From positions 1-36,865 of the forward strand of contig JAFGBA010000092.1 in the NCBI GenBank assembly GCA_016933395.1: 36,865 nucleotides of DNA, read 5' to 3'. A program made the translations under genes and the position numbers. How positions within the stretch are numbered: position 1 is the first letter of the stretch; each line of letters opens with the position of its first letter. Positions 63 through 7,611 of the stretch are shown here, piece after piece. The stretch is from Sedimentisphaerales bacterium (GTDB lineage Bacteria > Planctomycetota > Phycisphaerae > Sedimentisphaerales > SM23-30). The notes beneath the pieces are model-generated. The model was not told the origin of the DNA. It saw nothing but the letters and a program-made list of their open reading frames with translations, and made no database searches.

Positions 63-923
63 TCAACTATGAATGGGACAAGCTCTTACAAAACCTGGTT
101 CTTCTCCTCGATGTCTAGCAAATGCCGATTTTATTGATCTTGTATGCCGAATTAAAAGGTCGTTTTTATAGCGATCTTTAAATAATTTTGATGCAAAACT
201 AATAAATATTTCTAAGTTATGACGAGGTGCTGTTTGACCAGAACTCGGATATAAAACCCACCAATCTATATCTTGATAAATATTATCTAGATAAAGTGTT
301 GTTAAGAAAAATAAATAAATACTATCTCGAAGACGTTTTAAATCTGCCATTTCTTTTATTGCATCCCTTGCACGTCTTACTAATTCACGATTCAGGACGC
401 TTGTTGCATCATATAGCCCTCTGACAGAAATTGGTCGTCCATGCCGGTCATTATTATTTAATTCGATATACCAACCACGATCTCTTGATAAAAAAGTATC
501 TATAAAACTTAAGATATTTCTTGGTGTTATAATGTTAAGACCATATCTGTTATGCTTATTCGACCAACCTGCATTCAAATATAAAACGCCGGCATTAATA
601 GCACAAATAGCATCAGTTTTATCATTATCTCCAACATAGATCATTTCATTAAGTTCTATATCTAATTTATCCGCAGCATATTTGCAAAAAGCCGGGCTTG
701 GCTTTCTTTCGTTAACATCATCATTTGTAATTAATAAATGTGGATTTAAACTTGCATTACTAAGCATTTGGAGCGCTCTTCTACGCCCTTGGTTTGAAAG
801 TACTAGCCATTTAATATCTCTATGGTCAAGACCGCTTATTAATGTATTTATGTTTGGTACCAAATGTCCGCTTGAGTCAATTAATGTGCCATCTAAATCA
901 AAAAGAACTGCTTTAATCGCCAT
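63..923 (-). CDS. HAD-family hydrolase fused to a truncated phosphoribosyltransferase-like region
   Basis: About 286 residues from the chosen ATG at 923, which has a GGGGG ribosome binding site 7 bases upstream; an earlier in-frame ATG at 983 would overlap dprA by 71 bases. The HAD part (1-145) shows the nucleophile motif DLDGTL (Asp9, Asp11), SNQG at 43-46, KPSP (Lys74) and VGDND (97-101), so a phosphatase-type active site looks intact. The C-terminal part has YPSSG (225-229) and IRHTRSIKSAFARHR (258-272). As I recall, these features open a PRTase domain that continues with an HxNTIxLN-like segment and an acidic PRPP loop. Here the frame stops at TGA right after CPIHS, so the PRPP loop is absent. 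It overlaps the dprA stop by 11 bases, so the two are probably co-translated. Very AT-rich. The HAD call is firm; the PRTase call is inference. Confidence 0.75.
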   Translation of the reverse strand: MAIKAVLFDLDGTLIDSSGHLVPNINTLISGLDHRDIKWLVLSNQGRRRALQMLSNASLNPHLLITNDDVNERKPSPAFCKYAADKLDIELNEMIYVGDNDKTDAICAINAGVLYLNAGWSNKHNRYGLNIITPRNILSFIDTFLSRDRGWYIELNNNDRHGRPISVRGLYDATSVLNRELVRRARDAIKEMADLKRLRDSIYLFFLTTLYLDNIYQDIDWWVLYPSSGQTAPRHNLEIFISFASKLFKDRYKNDLLIRHTRSIKSAFARHRGEEPGFVRACPIHS

Positions 924-2118
924 TTGTTTTCCCCCGGATTGTATTCCGAACTTTTTCAATAAACCATTTATAACATGCTTCATCCATTGGAAAGATTTTA
1001 TGTGCTTTAAGAATAGTATCCAGAGCTTCTTTATAAGCTTCTAATCTTAGTGCGTTTTCATCTAATTTTATAGGTTCAGCATCTGTAGCGTATTTCTTTA
1101 TAATACTCCACAATTCATTAGGGCCATCTGGTTTTGATATGTTAATAATAGAATAACCTTTTTGTTTAAGTAAATATGGAATTTCATTTGAATTGTTGAT
1201 TTCATCAAGAATTATCCCAATAAGTGTTTTTCCATAATCTTCTGCAAAACGAATGGTGTGAGCCGTTCCACTCTCTGCTTTGCTTTCAATAGGAATAACT
1301 ATATTAGATAAGGCCGCTATGATCCTGTTTCTTTTAACAAAATTAGCTGCGCTATACATTGTATAAGGAAAATGTTCAGTTATTATAGCCCCATTTGAAG
1401 TATATATATTATACCTAAGATCACGGTTACTTGCAGGAAAATCAATATTCAAACCATGACCTAAAATAGCTATAGTTTTTCCTCCATATCTTAATACGGT
1501 TTTATGTGCAATTGAATCAATCCCATCAGCTAATCCTGACACAATTGTAAATCCCCTTTGTACAAGTTCCTTTGTTATATATTGAGTAGCGTTTATCCCA
1601 GATTGTGAGGGTTTTCTTGTTCCAACAACGGCTATATTGCATTCTTTAATTAATAATTTTGGATCTCCTTGAACAAAAAGCCAAAACGGACGGTCTGGAA
1701 TACATTTCAAAGATTCGGGAAACAATGGATGGCAATCCATAATTATATATGTTGAATTCTCCTTCATTTGATTTAAATTGCGAATCGATTTTGATAATAA
1801 ATCGTTTTTATTATTTTTTATTTTTTCTGATATAATATCTGATGATTTAATCTTTTCATTTTTTAAAATATTAACTAAAGATTTGGTATTAAACTCCCAT
1901 ACTTCACTTAAATCTGGAAATATTCTGCATAATTTTTTAAGAAATATTGGTCCAATGCCTTTAATCATAGAGAGAGCATAAAAATGAATTGCCTGCTGTT
2001 CGGGATCTAATTTTTTATTATGAGAAATTTCGTGAAATAACGAGGGCAAGTTATTTATATTCTTATGATTATCAAGATTATGTTTTTTTGTTGCCATATT
2101 TCTTATAAAATTATTCAC
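913..2118 (-). CDS. dprA: DprA/Smf-like SLOG-fold protein
   Basis: 401 residues with GTG at 2118; an ATG at 2097 is an equally plausible start and neither has a convincing ribosome binding site. A helix-hairpin-helix-like segment (about 50-75, MIKGIGP) precedes the Rossmann/SLOG domain: VVGTRKPSQSG (164-174), SGLADGIDSIAHK (194-206), ILGHGLNIDFPASN (218-231), RNRIIAALS (263-271) and SGTAHT (283-288). These are the DprA family signatures. Classical DprA loads RecA on incoming single-stranded DNA during transformation. The last 60 residues are helical and do not look like the usual winged helix. The gene is AT-rich (roughly a third GC by eye), unlike the operon at 2929-5540, and is translationally coupled to a HAD/PRTase-like gene. 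That context suggests a horizontally acquired DprA-like conflict or defence module rather than the housekeeping copy. The family call is firm, the role is inferred. Confidence 0.85.
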   Translation of the reverse strand: MNNFIRNMATKKHNLDNHKNINNLPSLFHEISHNKKLDPEQQAIHFYALSMIKGIGPIFLKKLCRIFPDLSEVWEFNTKSLVNILKNEKIKSSDIISEKIKNNKNDLLSKSIRNLNQMKENSTYIIMDCHPLFPESLKCIPDRPFWLFVQGDPKLLIKECNIAVVGTRKPSQSGINATQYITKELVQRGFTIVSGLADGIDSIAHKTVLRYGGKTIAILGHGLNIDFPASNRDLRYNIYTSNGAIITEHFPYTMYSAANFVKRNRIIAALSNIVIPIESKAESGTAHTIRFAEDYGKTLIGIILDEINNSNEIPYLLKQKGYSIINISKPDGPNELWSIIKKYATDAEPIKLDENALRLEAYKEALDTILKAHKIFPMDEACYKWFIEKVRNTIRGKTNGD

Positions 2119-2502
2119 TAATTACTGCAATCATTAACTAACCCCATTGATATTTTAAACAGTTTCACTCGACCAATAGCTTAGCATGCCTTAATTTTAT
2201 ATAGTTTCATAATAAACCGGGCATTTATAAAATAACCAAGAAATTTTAAAATTGCCTTTCACTGCTCTGAGTTAGGCCGACTTTGCCCGCCCCGGGGGCG
2301 TCAAAGACGCCTTCTGTTAACCTAATATATCTCGCCCATACGCAGGTTCTGAAAGAACCGGATAACTCCCAAAAATGATCGCGGCGTTAAATGCCCTAAT
2401 AGGGCTTATGGGACGTATTATAAGAAATTCATTAGGTGTTACAAGCCAAAAGGAGAATCGTGGTTAATGAGCGGCATAAGGGATTGTAATTAAAGGATTT
2501 AT

Positions 2503-2608: not shown

Positions 2609-2859
2609 ATAACTTATGTCGGGCCGGGGATAAGTTATGTCGGGCCAAAGATAACTTATAGTCAGGCAAAGATAACGTTATAAGCGATCATTTATAACGT
2701 TATAAGTGGGTCGGGGATAACGTTATGGTTATCCATTTATAACGTTATGTTTGGGTTTTTATAACGTTATATTTGAGTTGTTAAAACGTTATGTTTGGGA
2801 TTTTATAACGTTATGTTTTCAATTTTATAACGTTATGTTTGGGTCATTTATAACGTGAT
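2609..2859. repeat. Array of 12 palindromic 10-bp sites at 21-23 bp period
   Basis: Core ATAACGTTAT, a perfect palindrome, begins at 2672, 2694, 2717, 2739, 2761, 2783 (AAAACGTTAT), 2805, 2827 and 2850 (ATAACGTGAT). Three 9-bp variants, ATAACTTAT or ATAAGTTAT, begin at 2609, 2630 and 2651. Spacers are 12 bases (13 twice). In the right half they read GTTTGGGTTTTT or close to it; in the left half GTCGGGCC plus 4 bases. The 9-bp cores go with a 21-bp period and the 10-bp cores with 22, so spacer length is held constant. Every site therefore falls on about the same face of the helix. This could be a cooperative operator array, iterons, or a minisatellite. No cas genes and no unique long spacers are present. 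Confidence 0.9.
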
Positions 2860-2928: not shown

Positions 2929-4074
2929 TCAATGCAATCTTTGGGCTACATTGATCAACCGCATTATCTGTTCGGCGGCGTCGGCCAGCAGCGTTGCTCC
3001 CTGAGTCAGCGCTTCGGCCGGTGTGATGGGGCCGGGGCAAATGGATAGATACGCCGCCACGCCCAGGTCGTGAACAGCCCCGGCGTCAGGGGCGACCGTT
3101 CCGGCCAGAGCGACGACGGGGATGTTTTGCCGCCGGGCGCGGGCGGCGACGCCGGCGATGGTCTTGCCGAAGGCGGTTTGACCGTCCAATTTGCCTTCGC
3201 CGGTGATGACCAGGTCCGCCCCGGTGAGTTTTTCATCCAACCGAGCGGCGTCCAGCACAATGTCCACGCCGCGTTCGAGCTTTGCTCCGGCGAAGGCCAT
3301 CAGTCCGGCGCCCAAGCCTCCGGCCGCTCCTGCGCCGGGCGTATCTCTTACCGCACGGCCGGTCGCGGCTTCGATGATATCAATGATGTGGGCGGCGTTG
3401 GTTTCCAGCATCTCCTGCCCGGCCGGGTCCGCTCCTTTTTGCGGACTATAGACCCGCGCTGCTCCCTTGGGCCCCAGCAGGGGATTGGTGACATCACAGG
3501 CCACGCGTATGCTTACGCCTTTGAGCCTTTTGACGGCTTCGGTCATGTCGATTTTCGCTGCCTGCCCCATAAGTTCGCCGGTCATGGGTTGTTGGATAAG
3601 TTGGCTGCAACGATCGTAAAACCGCACGCCCAACGCCTGGGCCATGCCCGTGCCGCAGTCATTGGTCGCCGATCCGCCGATGCCGATGATCAGCCGTTGG
3701 CATCCTTGCTCGACGGCGTCGGCCATCAACTCGCCCAGGCCATAGGTGGTGGTGTGAAGTGGATTGCGCTGAACCTCCGGAACCAAAGGCAAACCGGCCG
3801 CTGCGGCCATTTCGATGACCGCCAAGCGATCCGGCAACAAACCGTAGATTGCTTCAACCTTTTCCTGCAAGGGGCCATGCACTTTAAACCGTCGATACGT
3901 TCCACCCGTTGCCGCCGTCAGGGCTTCGACGGTGCCTTCGCCGCCATCGGCTACCGGAACTTCCACGATTTGAGTATCCGGCCGCACCCGCCGAATGCCT
4001 TCCGCGATGGCCCGGCACGCCTCGATGGAACTGAGGGAATTTTTGAAGGAGTCAGGGGCGATAATGATTTTCAT
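2929..4074 (-). CDS. garK: Glycerate kinase (GarK/GlxK type)
   Basis: 381 residues, the usual length of the GarK/GlxK-type glycerate kinase family, which phosphorylates D-glycerate to 2- or 3-phosphoglycerate using ATP. It starts MKIIIAPDSFKNSLSS, the family hallmark. Further signatures are VADGGEGT (about 42-49), IGIGGSATNDCGTGMAQALG (about 130-149), the acidic VACDVTNPLLGPKGAA segment, and TGEGKLDGQTAFGKT near 290-305. It is the last gene of a three-gene leftward operon, 14 bases after the GT2 stop. Its neighbours do not point to one pathway, so the glycerate source (glyoxylate, serine or glycosyl-glycerate turnover) is unknown; a GT2 next door allows a glucosylglycerate link, but that is speculation. 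Confidence 0.93.
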   Translation of the reverse strand: MKIIIAPDSFKNSLSSIEACRAIAEGIRRVRPDTQIVEVPVADGGEGTVEALTAATGGTYRRFKVHGPLQEKVEAIYGLLPDRLAVIEMAAAAGLPLVPEVQRNPLHTTTYGLGELMADAVEQGCQRLIIGIGGSATNDCGTGMAQALGVRFYDRCSQLIQQPMTGELMGQAAKIDMTEAVKRLKGVSIRVACDVTNPLLGPKGAARVYSPQKGADPAGQEMLETNAAHIIDIIEAATGRAVRDTPGAGAAGGLGAGLMAFAGAKLERGVDIVLDAARLDEKLTGADLVITGEGKLDGQTAFGKTIAGVAARARRQNIPVVALAGTVAPDAGAVHDLGVAAYLSICPGPITPAEALTQGATLLADAAEQIMRLINVAQRLH

Positions 4075-5804: not shown

Positions 5805-6225
5805 ATCGGTTTTTTAAGGGTTGTTTTCTGCCTTGACGGTTAACGCGACCGCCTTATGATGGTAAACCCTCGGGGCATATTCATAACCTATTGCTATCAA
5901 AGGATTACGCACGTGTGTCCCAACAGGATATGGTTCTCTGTTTCGACGCCGAGAGTTAGGAATTCAAAAGCAATCGTGGGGATTGGTTTCGTACCCCGAA
6001 AAAACGAAATAAAACTCTCAAATTCTCTGTTTAACACCCATCTCTGGGTTAACAATCCTGTCCAATTCGGACCCCGAAAGCAACCGTTTCAAACTTCCCG
6101 TGAATACGTTAGGACAGACTATCATTGTTTGCTGCCGGGATTAGGCGGAAATGGACAGTTTACCTTCACCGGATTATACAGTCTGTTCAATCATTGTTCG
6201 ACATTTCGGAACCACAGGAGGCAAC
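5805..6225. other. Intergenic region after tRNA-Asn
   Basis: No gene supported. It has one promoter-like site (5833-5860). A 128-codon open frame (5856-6242) lacks a ribosome binding site and overlaps the next gene's start; its translation shows no recognisable features. Confidence 0.6.
5833..5860 (+). promoter_or_regulatory. Promoter-like site downstream of tRNA-Asn
   Basis: TTGACG (5833-5838), 16-base spacer, TATGAT (5855-5860). It could drive the TIR-like gene at 6226 through a leader of about 360 bases. It is the best sigma70-type match I noticed between the tRNA and that gene. Confidence 0.45.
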
Positions 6226-7611
6226 ATGTCAGCTACATATAAATGTTTGAAGGTCTTCCTCTGTTCGGCATCCGGTACCACGTCAGAGGAAAAGGCAGTA
6301 TGCGAAACGATAGAGAATATCAATCGTGTGACCCGTGATCATTTGGCGATCGAATTCCACCTTGTTAAGTGGCAGGAATTCGCTCCGCGTACGCCCGACC
6401 TTTCCAAGACACGCAAGCAATCCGAGTACAACGACTTCGTCAAAGAATGCGATATCTTCATTCTTTTGCTTTGGAAGAGGCACGGTAGCTACGAACCTGG
6501 CCAGGACCGGACCAATCTCGAACGTGAGGTAGATGAAGCGGTCAAGCGGGTCAAGCGCGGCGACAAGATGATGATGTTGACCTATTTTCGGAATTTTGAG
6601 GTGTCAGCAACACCCAATGATCAGGAAAAAGGCGTCATCACTTTGCGCTCATATCTCCATAAAGAAGGAATCACCTATATCGCATACGGAGAGATTAACG
6701 AGTTTGCGGATCGCTTCCTTCCCGACCTCTACGAGACCTTGCTTCAGTTCGAGTTCAACACCCCGCAATACCGTGCGCTACGTGCATTCTGGCAGTTCGG
6801 AGTTCCTGCTGACGATTCAACACCTCTTCCCCCTACGTTGGTCATTGGGTATCCTGGAATGAACCGAGCATACATGCGGCTTCCGCAACAAGACGTGAAG
6901 TTGTGGCTTCGTCGGCTTGTGCCGAACATCGTCTATGAGGACCACCGTGCGCTTCAAAAACTAGACAAGATGCTGAGGGTCATCAGGATGACAAATTCTC
7001 ATACCTGCACGCTTGCTAATCTTCCTGATAACTGGCGCCGCGCCAATAGATGTTGGATATGCATCCCGCGCAACTATATCGCTTTAGAACGGCTCAATCA
7101 CCATTCTCACCACGCATGTTTCTCAGTTCATCCATCAGAAGGAGATCAGGACGCTTGGTTTACATGGAAAGGAGGACATTCCTGTCGCAAACATCCTGTC
7201 AGATCACCGCTTGCGGTCTATTTGCGACTTCAGAGGAAGGGAGACGATCTCTCCAGAGAGTGGAACCGCAACCTCCGAGACGTTGTTGCACGTGACTACG
7301 CTATCATCGCGAGATTCCCTATAGAAGACAAGGAAATCCCCATGCGAGAAGGACACCTCATGGAGTACTTCATTGGTGGAATTCGTGGGCTTGGTACATG
7401 GGGTGCAACTTGGTTTATGGATCACAGGGCACATAAGTTGACGGACTGCCAGGGATGGGGTCCATATCAGCGTTTGTTGGAGGTGACCTACAAAGACGGA
7501 CATATTCACGATGTGAAGGACGTATCCGAAGAGTCGCCTAGTGACTTCAAGCATCAATTGGACGAGAAGTACATACTCCGTGAGATTGATAAAGTGAGAG
7601 CTGGCGGGTGA
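6226..7611 (+). CDS. TIR/DUF4062-like protein with uncharacterised C-terminal half
   Basis: 461 residues from the ATG at 6226, which follows an AGGAGG box at ideal spacing; an upstream in-frame ATG at 6151 has none. The N-terminal ~170 residues fit a DUF4062/TIR-like flavodoxin-type fold: KVFLCSASGTTSEEKAV (strand and first helix), VKWQEF, QSEYNDFVKECDIFILLLWKRHGS, then TNLEREVDEAVKRVKRGDKMMML with an acidic helix where TIR-like enzymes carry their conserved Glu. The C-terminal ~250 residues are not recognised; a striking stretch (about residues 379-402) includes EYFIGGIRGLGTWGATWF. No membrane segment or signal peptide, so cytosolic. A position next to a tRNA gene and beside a broken GIY-YIG gene suggests an accessory region. 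TIR-like N-termini joined to ligand-sensing C-termini are common in immune proteins; that role here is inference. Confidence 0.7.
   Translation: MSATYKCLKVFLCSASGTTSEEKAVCETIENINRVTRDHLAIEFHLVKWQEFAPRTPDLSKTRKQSEYNDFVKECDIFILLLWKRHGSYEPGQDRTNLEREVDEAVKRVKRGDKMMMLTYFRNFEVSATPNDQEKGVITLRSYLHKEGITYIAYGEINEFADRFLPDLYETLLQFEFNTPQYRALRAFWQFGVPADDSTPLPPTLVIGYPGMNRAYMRLPQQDVKLWLRRLVPNIVYEDHRALQKLDKMLRVIRMTNSHTCTLANLPDNWRRANRCWICIPRNYIALERLNHHSHHACFSVHPSEGDQDAWFTWKGGHSCRKHPVRSPLAVYLRLQRKGDDLSREWNRNLRDVVARDYAIIARFPIEDKEIPMREGHLMEYFIGGIRGLGTWGATWFMDHRAHKLTDCQGWGPYQRLLEVTYKDGHIHDVKDVSEESPSDFKHQLDEKYILREIDKVRAGG

Follow-up and report, generated by a model that had tools for sequence, protein, structure and literature searches.

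What is the function of twelve palindromes set in a regular row, with a glycerate kinase gene on one side and a putative phage-defense operon on the other? The question is raised by an intergenic segment of contig JAFGBA010000092.1 from a Sedimentisphaerales bacterium, the 36,865 nucleotides of which were analyzed as a whole and are referred to below as the window. A preliminary description of this DNA had suggested a site for a cooperative dimeric protein, iterons or a nucleation site.

Anatomy of the array

Direct reading of the sequence, TRF and re-alignment of the units agree on an array of 12 head-to-tail units with 21–23 bp steps at positions 2609–2871. The twelve-unit palindrome array first described is therefore real. 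Units 1–3 (2609–2671), delimited in the same three ways, are 21 bp each and carry the 9-bp core ATAA(C/G)TTAT, followed by spacers that begin GTCGGGCC or AGTCAGGC. Units 4–6 (2672–2738) measure 22, 23 and 22 bp and share a mismatch-free 10-bp core, ATAACGTTAT, whereas their spacers have diverged widely. Units 7–12 (2739–2871; 22–23 bp) have the same core and a GTTTGGG-like spacer, with one core mismatch in unit 9 (AAAACGTTAT) and one in unit 12 (ATAACGTGAT). The 10-bp core is consequently perfect in 7/9 of units 4–12 and singly mismatched in 2/9. The palindrome arms ATAA and TTAT are near-invariant across the units, and it is the center that varies, being C, G or CG. The spacer is 12 bp long in 10/12 units and 13 bp in 2/12 (units 5 and 11). 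The earlier rule that 9-bp cores go with a 21-bp step and 10-bp cores with a 22-bp step holds, except that units 5 and 11 step 23 bp because of their 13-bp spacers.

The core is conserved selectively, while the spacing stays constant within the array. Mean pairwise identity between the 12 units in the alignment is 94% for the core and 40% for the spacer, which is not the pattern of evenly decaying minisatellite DNA. The spacers had been called similar to one another, and this does not apply in general, since likeness is confined to subgroups (units 1–2, and units 7–12 with GTTTGGG). With up to one mismatch allowed, the window contains ATAACGTTAT 10 times where 1.3 would be expected, a count that 0/100 shuffles reach; none of 500 column permutations is as palindromic as the array (0/500). 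The dyads are in phase for a helical repeat of 11.0 bp (mean phase vector 0.925) and not for one of 10.5 bp (0.22). The suggestion that all sites face the same side of the DNA is thus correct for a repeat of about 11.0 bp and fails for 10.5 bp. A helical repeat near 11 bp is the value obtained from loop-spacing experiments in living bacteria.

The most obvious alternative is a degenerate minisatellite, produced by slippage or unequal exchange of a palindrome-bearing 22-bp unit through a mechanism that favors whole-turn duplications. A minisatellite history is real, because the units were duplicated head-to-tail, and similarity is higher between neighboring than between distant spacers (units 1–2 and 7–12). 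However, even decay cannot yield the observed difference between core and spacer identity. With the core kept and the spacers diverged, the array is no plain minisatellite, in agreement with the earlier statement that simple slippage does not predict it.

Other helically spaced arrays in the same genome

The genome is a fragmented MAG of 3.37 Mb in 384 contigs, 70% complete. About one third of it (1.08 Mb) was scanned for chains of a recurring 8-mer with up to one mismatch and steady spacing, in five period classes. The contigs were sampled partly by number and partly for weak motif matches, and those chosen for weak motif matches yielded none of the arrays. Within the 1.08 Mb, conserved-core chains of at least five units occur only at periods of 10–11 or 20–23 bp, and none was found at 13–18, 25–30 or 31–36 bp. 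The core differs at each array locus, and at least six independent arrays are present. The array in the window consequently belongs to a class whose members in this genome share helical spacing and differ in core sequence, a point that the preliminary description had missed.

Among the arrays with two-turn spacing, that of contig C338 (L238; 14860–15090) consists of ten AAGAG-N3/4-CTCTC units at 22–23 bp steps between the alanine dehydrogenase and mfd genes. Contig C331 (L231) carries GTCGCAGnGGCTGCG at 20 bp, located at 2.5 kb between usp and sulfatase genes, and contig C316 (L217) carries GAGTTAGTC at 22 bp, located at 13.6 kb. One-turn spacing is found at the start of contig C147, where AAACGAC recurs every 10–11 bp upstream of a permease gene, and in two arrays of 11-bp AAACC units, each about 250 bp upstream of a LamG-dockerin gene: seven units in C306 (L207; 137–208) and nine in C9 (L149; 4105–4196), the latter detected only in the 7-mer setting. 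An A-rich run in C9 (GAAAAAA at 9–11 bp steps), also from the 7-mer setting, was taken as a low-complexity run. None of the annotated genes adjoining the other arrays encodes a regulator.

In five replicates of a Markov-simulated genome sample, no chain of at least four units appeared at periods of 19–24 bp, and over all periods a single 4-chain was obtained, at 13–18 bp. A 250-kb sample of E. coli contained no such chains, and 357 kb of a family relative contained only low-complexity repeats, mostly of triplet-multiple period, both samples being too small to prove absence. That 6/6 arrays fall into the helical classes has a post hoc probability of p = 9e-6 under uniform periods of 9–36 bp.

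In C338, a 13-bp core goes with a 22-bp step and a 14-bp core with a 23-bp step, the extra base lying at the dyad; the constant-spacer rule noted for the window is thus obeyed by a second, independent array in the genome. In addition, one C338 unit has two palindrome base pairs changed on both sides (AT to GC and GC to TA), with the palindrome kept. Palindromicity beyond column permutation (0/500) was also obtained for C338 and C331; for C316, one of the four arrays at 20–23 bp, it was not significant by this test. The C9 and C306 loci are homologous and 76% identical, and substitutions between them fall in 1/35 core and 12/39 non-core positions (Fisher p = 0.0017). Taken together, the contrast between core and spacer, the C338 dyad rule with its paired changes and the C9/C306 split argue for selection on the sites.

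These results also bear on the minisatellite explanation. In its favor, the C9 and C306 loci differ in length by exactly 22 bp, that is, two 11-bp units; other MAGs commonly contain tandem repeats of various kinds; and about half of psychrophile and mesophile genomes show an excess of clustered octamer repeats (PMC4060949). It does not account, however, for the uneven split of substitutions between the two homologous arrays, or for a constant spacer with a toggling dyad in two independent arrays. A degenerate minisatellite appears rather unlikely.

Genomic setting and distribution

The array follows the glycerate kinase operon and precedes the dprA-HAD pair, as had been stated. It starts 57 bp past the stop codon of the glycerate kinase gene (2929–4074, minus strand; Pfam PF02595, E 4e-144), and about 490 bp separate its other end from the start of a downstream dprA-like gene, also on the minus strand. 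The latter gene (913–2118, minus strand) encodes a DprA-fold, ShosA-like putative antitoxin (PADLOC ShosA, E 2.8e-79; Pfam DNA_processg_A) and is followed by a HAD-containing, ShosT-like putative toxin gene (63–983, minus strand; PADLOC ShosT, E 7.6e-17; HAD_2). The ShosT-like reading frame ends at residue 306 (stop at 307), and relatives have about 410–420 aa, so that its C-terminal part may be missing. On the basis of these matches, the pair first labeled dprA-HAD is assigned to ShosTA-like toxin–antitoxin phage-defense systems. ShosTA pairs at other loci, including phage and plasmid ones, have identical gene neighbors. A DprA/phosphoribosyltransferase system is described from P2-like phages, and DprA homologues serve as antitoxins in shosTA (PMC9122126).

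The description of this pair as foreign-looking appears justified: the DprA proteins of family relatives are only 31–40% identical to the ShosA-like protein, and the ShosTA region, with the array at its edge, has 32% GC compared with 51% in the genome sample, which makes acquisition of the pair probable. The suggested link between the array and dprA-like genes, in contrast, did not survive. None of six other ShosTA loci (0/6; L281–L286) has an array upstream of its operon, and the association is therefore probably incidental. The best sigma-70-like promoter match, TTGTAA-16-TATAAT (2417–2444, minus strand), lies in the gap between the array and shosA and is purely a match to the consensus, at 10/12 positions. 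The same gap contains, at 2505–2585, an inverted repeat of the dispersed CCGCAAAG / CTTTGCG(TT)CTCTGCGG kind, with a partial copy in L181. The remaining window is ordinary chromosome, with genes for CTP synthase, KDO cytidylyltransferase, aconitase, glycogen debranching enzyme and tRNA-Asn. Near the tRNA-Asn gene, an open reading frame at 6151–7611 gives a weak DUF4062 match, below the curated cut-off, and matches the PADLOC candidate-defense family PDC-S60.

This setting makes it necessary to consider a mobile-element end, in which the palindromes would be subterminal transposase-binding sites of the Tn7, Mu or IS21 type, left behind or edging the AT-rich ShosTA island. Transposase sites are often helically spaced repeats, and the array does border the low-GC region. 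Moreover, ShosTA is typical mobile-element cargo (PMC9122126), and other ShosTA loci lie in phages and plasmids. However, no transposase or integrase was found near the array or among the tested proteins beside the six other arrays, and no inverted second copy was found in the genome; the contig begins 2.6 kb from the array, and the far end of the island lies outside it. The array-free ShosTA loci also oppose this explanation, as do the other arrays that flank housekeeping genes (AlaDH/Mfd and Usp/sulfatase), and it must be regarded as improbable.

The position of the array directly upstream of a toxin–antitoxin pair and the folding of its minus strand (z = -6.4 against shuffles) suggest another explanation, namely that its RNA would form pairing stems in the glycerate kinase 3′ UTR or the shosA leader. 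It could then act as a terminator, a stabilizer or an antitoxin RNA resembling type III toxin–antitoxin repeats. Arrays of self-complementary words always fold well, however, which makes the folding score uninformative, and an RNA role is weak because single 9–10 bp cores with a 1–2 nt center cannot form a hairpin. Neither an Rfam covariance-model match nor a terminator-like site was found in the array, and no toxin–antitoxin genes adjoin the remaining arrays of the class. Such a role is very unlikely. The lowest probability, close to negligible, is given to a plasmid or chromosome origin with the repeats as its iterons or centromere. Many direct repeats of about 22 bp do recall iterons or parC-type arrays, but the tested window genes include no replication or partition gene, no DnaA boxes or box cluster lie near the array, and the skew does not clearly change there. 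The context is chromosomal and housekeeping, and one genome has several arrays with different cores. A role as an origin finds no support.

The distribution of the unit was also searched. The preliminary description had named scattering of the array over unrelated loci as the mark of a plain minisatellite, and no second or dispersed copy of the unit was found in the genome. The bare 10-mer core occurs four more times elsewhere in the genome, about the chance level, and an ordinary regulon is therefore lacking. None of 396 other genomes of the class has the two-core pattern, and among 294 genomes of the phylum tandem TAASTTATGTCGG occurs only in this one. In seven relatives with enough flanking sequence, neither an array nor dprA is found within 1.5 kb after glycerate kinase. 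Searches of plasmid and phage collections for similar DNA gave no second copy of the array and nothing useful, and viral matches to ATAACTTATGTCGGG were rejected as chance single sites. The genome collection holds no close relative, and the array is known from this one genome.

A GTDB scan for paired cores returned mostly 20–24 bp pairs in Pseudomonas, Rhodobacterales and Photobacterium, which resemble ordinary two-palindrome sites. The sites of the form ATAACGTTAT-N10/12-ATAACGTTAT conserved in Rhodobacterales and Pseudomonas are probably ordinary operators; the loci listed are L042, L045, L074, L076 and L096, together with L028, L043, L051, L064 and L091 in Pseudomonas. Repeats of 8-bp and 12-bp period in Bacteroidota were set aside as a different kind. 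The Spartobacteria MAG Umea_bin-08385 (L033, L047, L063, L069, L106) contains many strictly 21-bp arrays, including ATAACGTTATTGGACGGCGGA and the palindromic variants ATGACGTCAT and GTAACGTTAC; open frames cross these arrays, which may therefore be translated. Closer in build to the window array are six units of GTGACRAATCGTCAC (TGACGAATCGTCA) at alternating 22/23-bp steps in a Ca. Parabeggiatoa MAG (L049, 7580–7735) and a 23-bp array of GGATAACGTTATCC in a Spirochaetes MAG (L067). With these two, the class may be wider than this genome.

A proposed binding array and its closest known systems

A cooperative dimer-binding array needs a conserved palindromic core at fixed helical spacing, and this is what the locus presents. 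The cooperative dimeric binder first proposed therefore remains the best reading: with slightly better than even probability, the array comprises about 12 sites bound cooperatively by a dimeric protein, is one of several such arrays and has a local role. The protein, its cooperative binding and any effect on transcription or DNA architecture are what we infer from the layout of the sites. The half-site would be ATAA/TTAT, with the dimer tolerating 1 bp at the dyad, and the dimers would sit two helical turns apart (22 bp at 11.0 bp per turn) on one face of the DNA, a spacing at which neighboring dimers are proposed to touch and bind cooperatively. Elsewhere in the genome, dimer sites would step by about 22 bp and monomer sites by about 11 bp, with a separate protein for each array; it is this two-turn and one-turn geometry that leads the arrays to be taken as cooperative binding strips. 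Most likely, the array would serve in its intergenic region as a multi-site operator, as an upstream activating region or as a nucleoprotein patch. Its putative targets are the neighboring genes or local DNA structure, here in the gap between the glycerate kinase and ShosTA-like operons. Against a binding array stand the missing dispersed regulon, the absence of the array in relatives and the lack of a regulator beside the other arrays. The C331 array, moreover, is flanked by convergent genes, where an operator would be unusual, and the C316 array is not significantly palindromic.

A broader and distinctly less probable version is that the lineage as a whole uses helically phased arrays specific to their loci, with a polymerizing protein family that supplies one member to load each array. 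Every array would have its own palindromic or direct core at an 11- or 22-bp pitch, and the protein would polymerize on one face of the supercoiled double helix; the resulting local nucleoprotein patches would determine gene expression or chromosome structure. If the Parabeggiatoa and Spirochaetes arrays belong to it, the class would be wider and so far undescribed. Should the arrays be protein-loaded, they would represent a kind of intergenic cis element that is classed among the minisatellites by repeat finders, and they would offer a direct read-out of the helical repeat used by proteins on bacterial DNA in vivo (11.0 rather than 10.5 bp). The idea can be put to the test, as 1.08 Mb contain at least six independent arrays and one dedicated binding protein is predicted per array.

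The literature searched contains no description of a class of helically spaced arrays with many cores, and the array had rightly been called unrecognized, as no matching described element was found there. Cooperative operators of dimeric repressors and PHO-box type 11-bp boxes of response regulators usually have few sites, a known regulator and a dispersed regulon. The likeness lies in intergenic half-sites repeated at one- or two-turn spacing, with the core conserved and the spacer free; the present array differs in having 12 sites, no dispersed regulon and no assigned protein. Iterons, parC centromeres and transposon subterminal arrays are also helically spaced arrays of protein sites, but no replication, partition or transposition gene was found near the array.

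LytTR-family sites are direct repeats separated by 11–13 bp (PMC6193735). Their 9-bp element, 12–13 bp spacer and 21–22 bp period agree with an array of 9–10 bp cores; however, they are direct-repeat pairs, whereas the array is made of tandem palindromes. No LytTR (PF04397) protein was found in the 70% complete genome, compared with 5/14 positive control genomes. BldC forms cooperative head-to-tail filaments on direct repeats, the number of which varies from run to run (PMC5859096), so that cooperative multimers on repeat runs of this sort do exist. Its repeats are AT-rich, shorter and non-palindromic and would fit the 11-bp arrays only. Beggiatoaceae have many intergenic arrays per genome, built of TAACTGA direct repeats, a single 7-bp word used genome-wide (PMC4679880). 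No helical spacing is reported for that word, whereas here the core differs per locus and the spacing is one or two turns. Laboratory lacO/tetO arrays would, if the present arrays are protein-loaded, have natural counterparts here.
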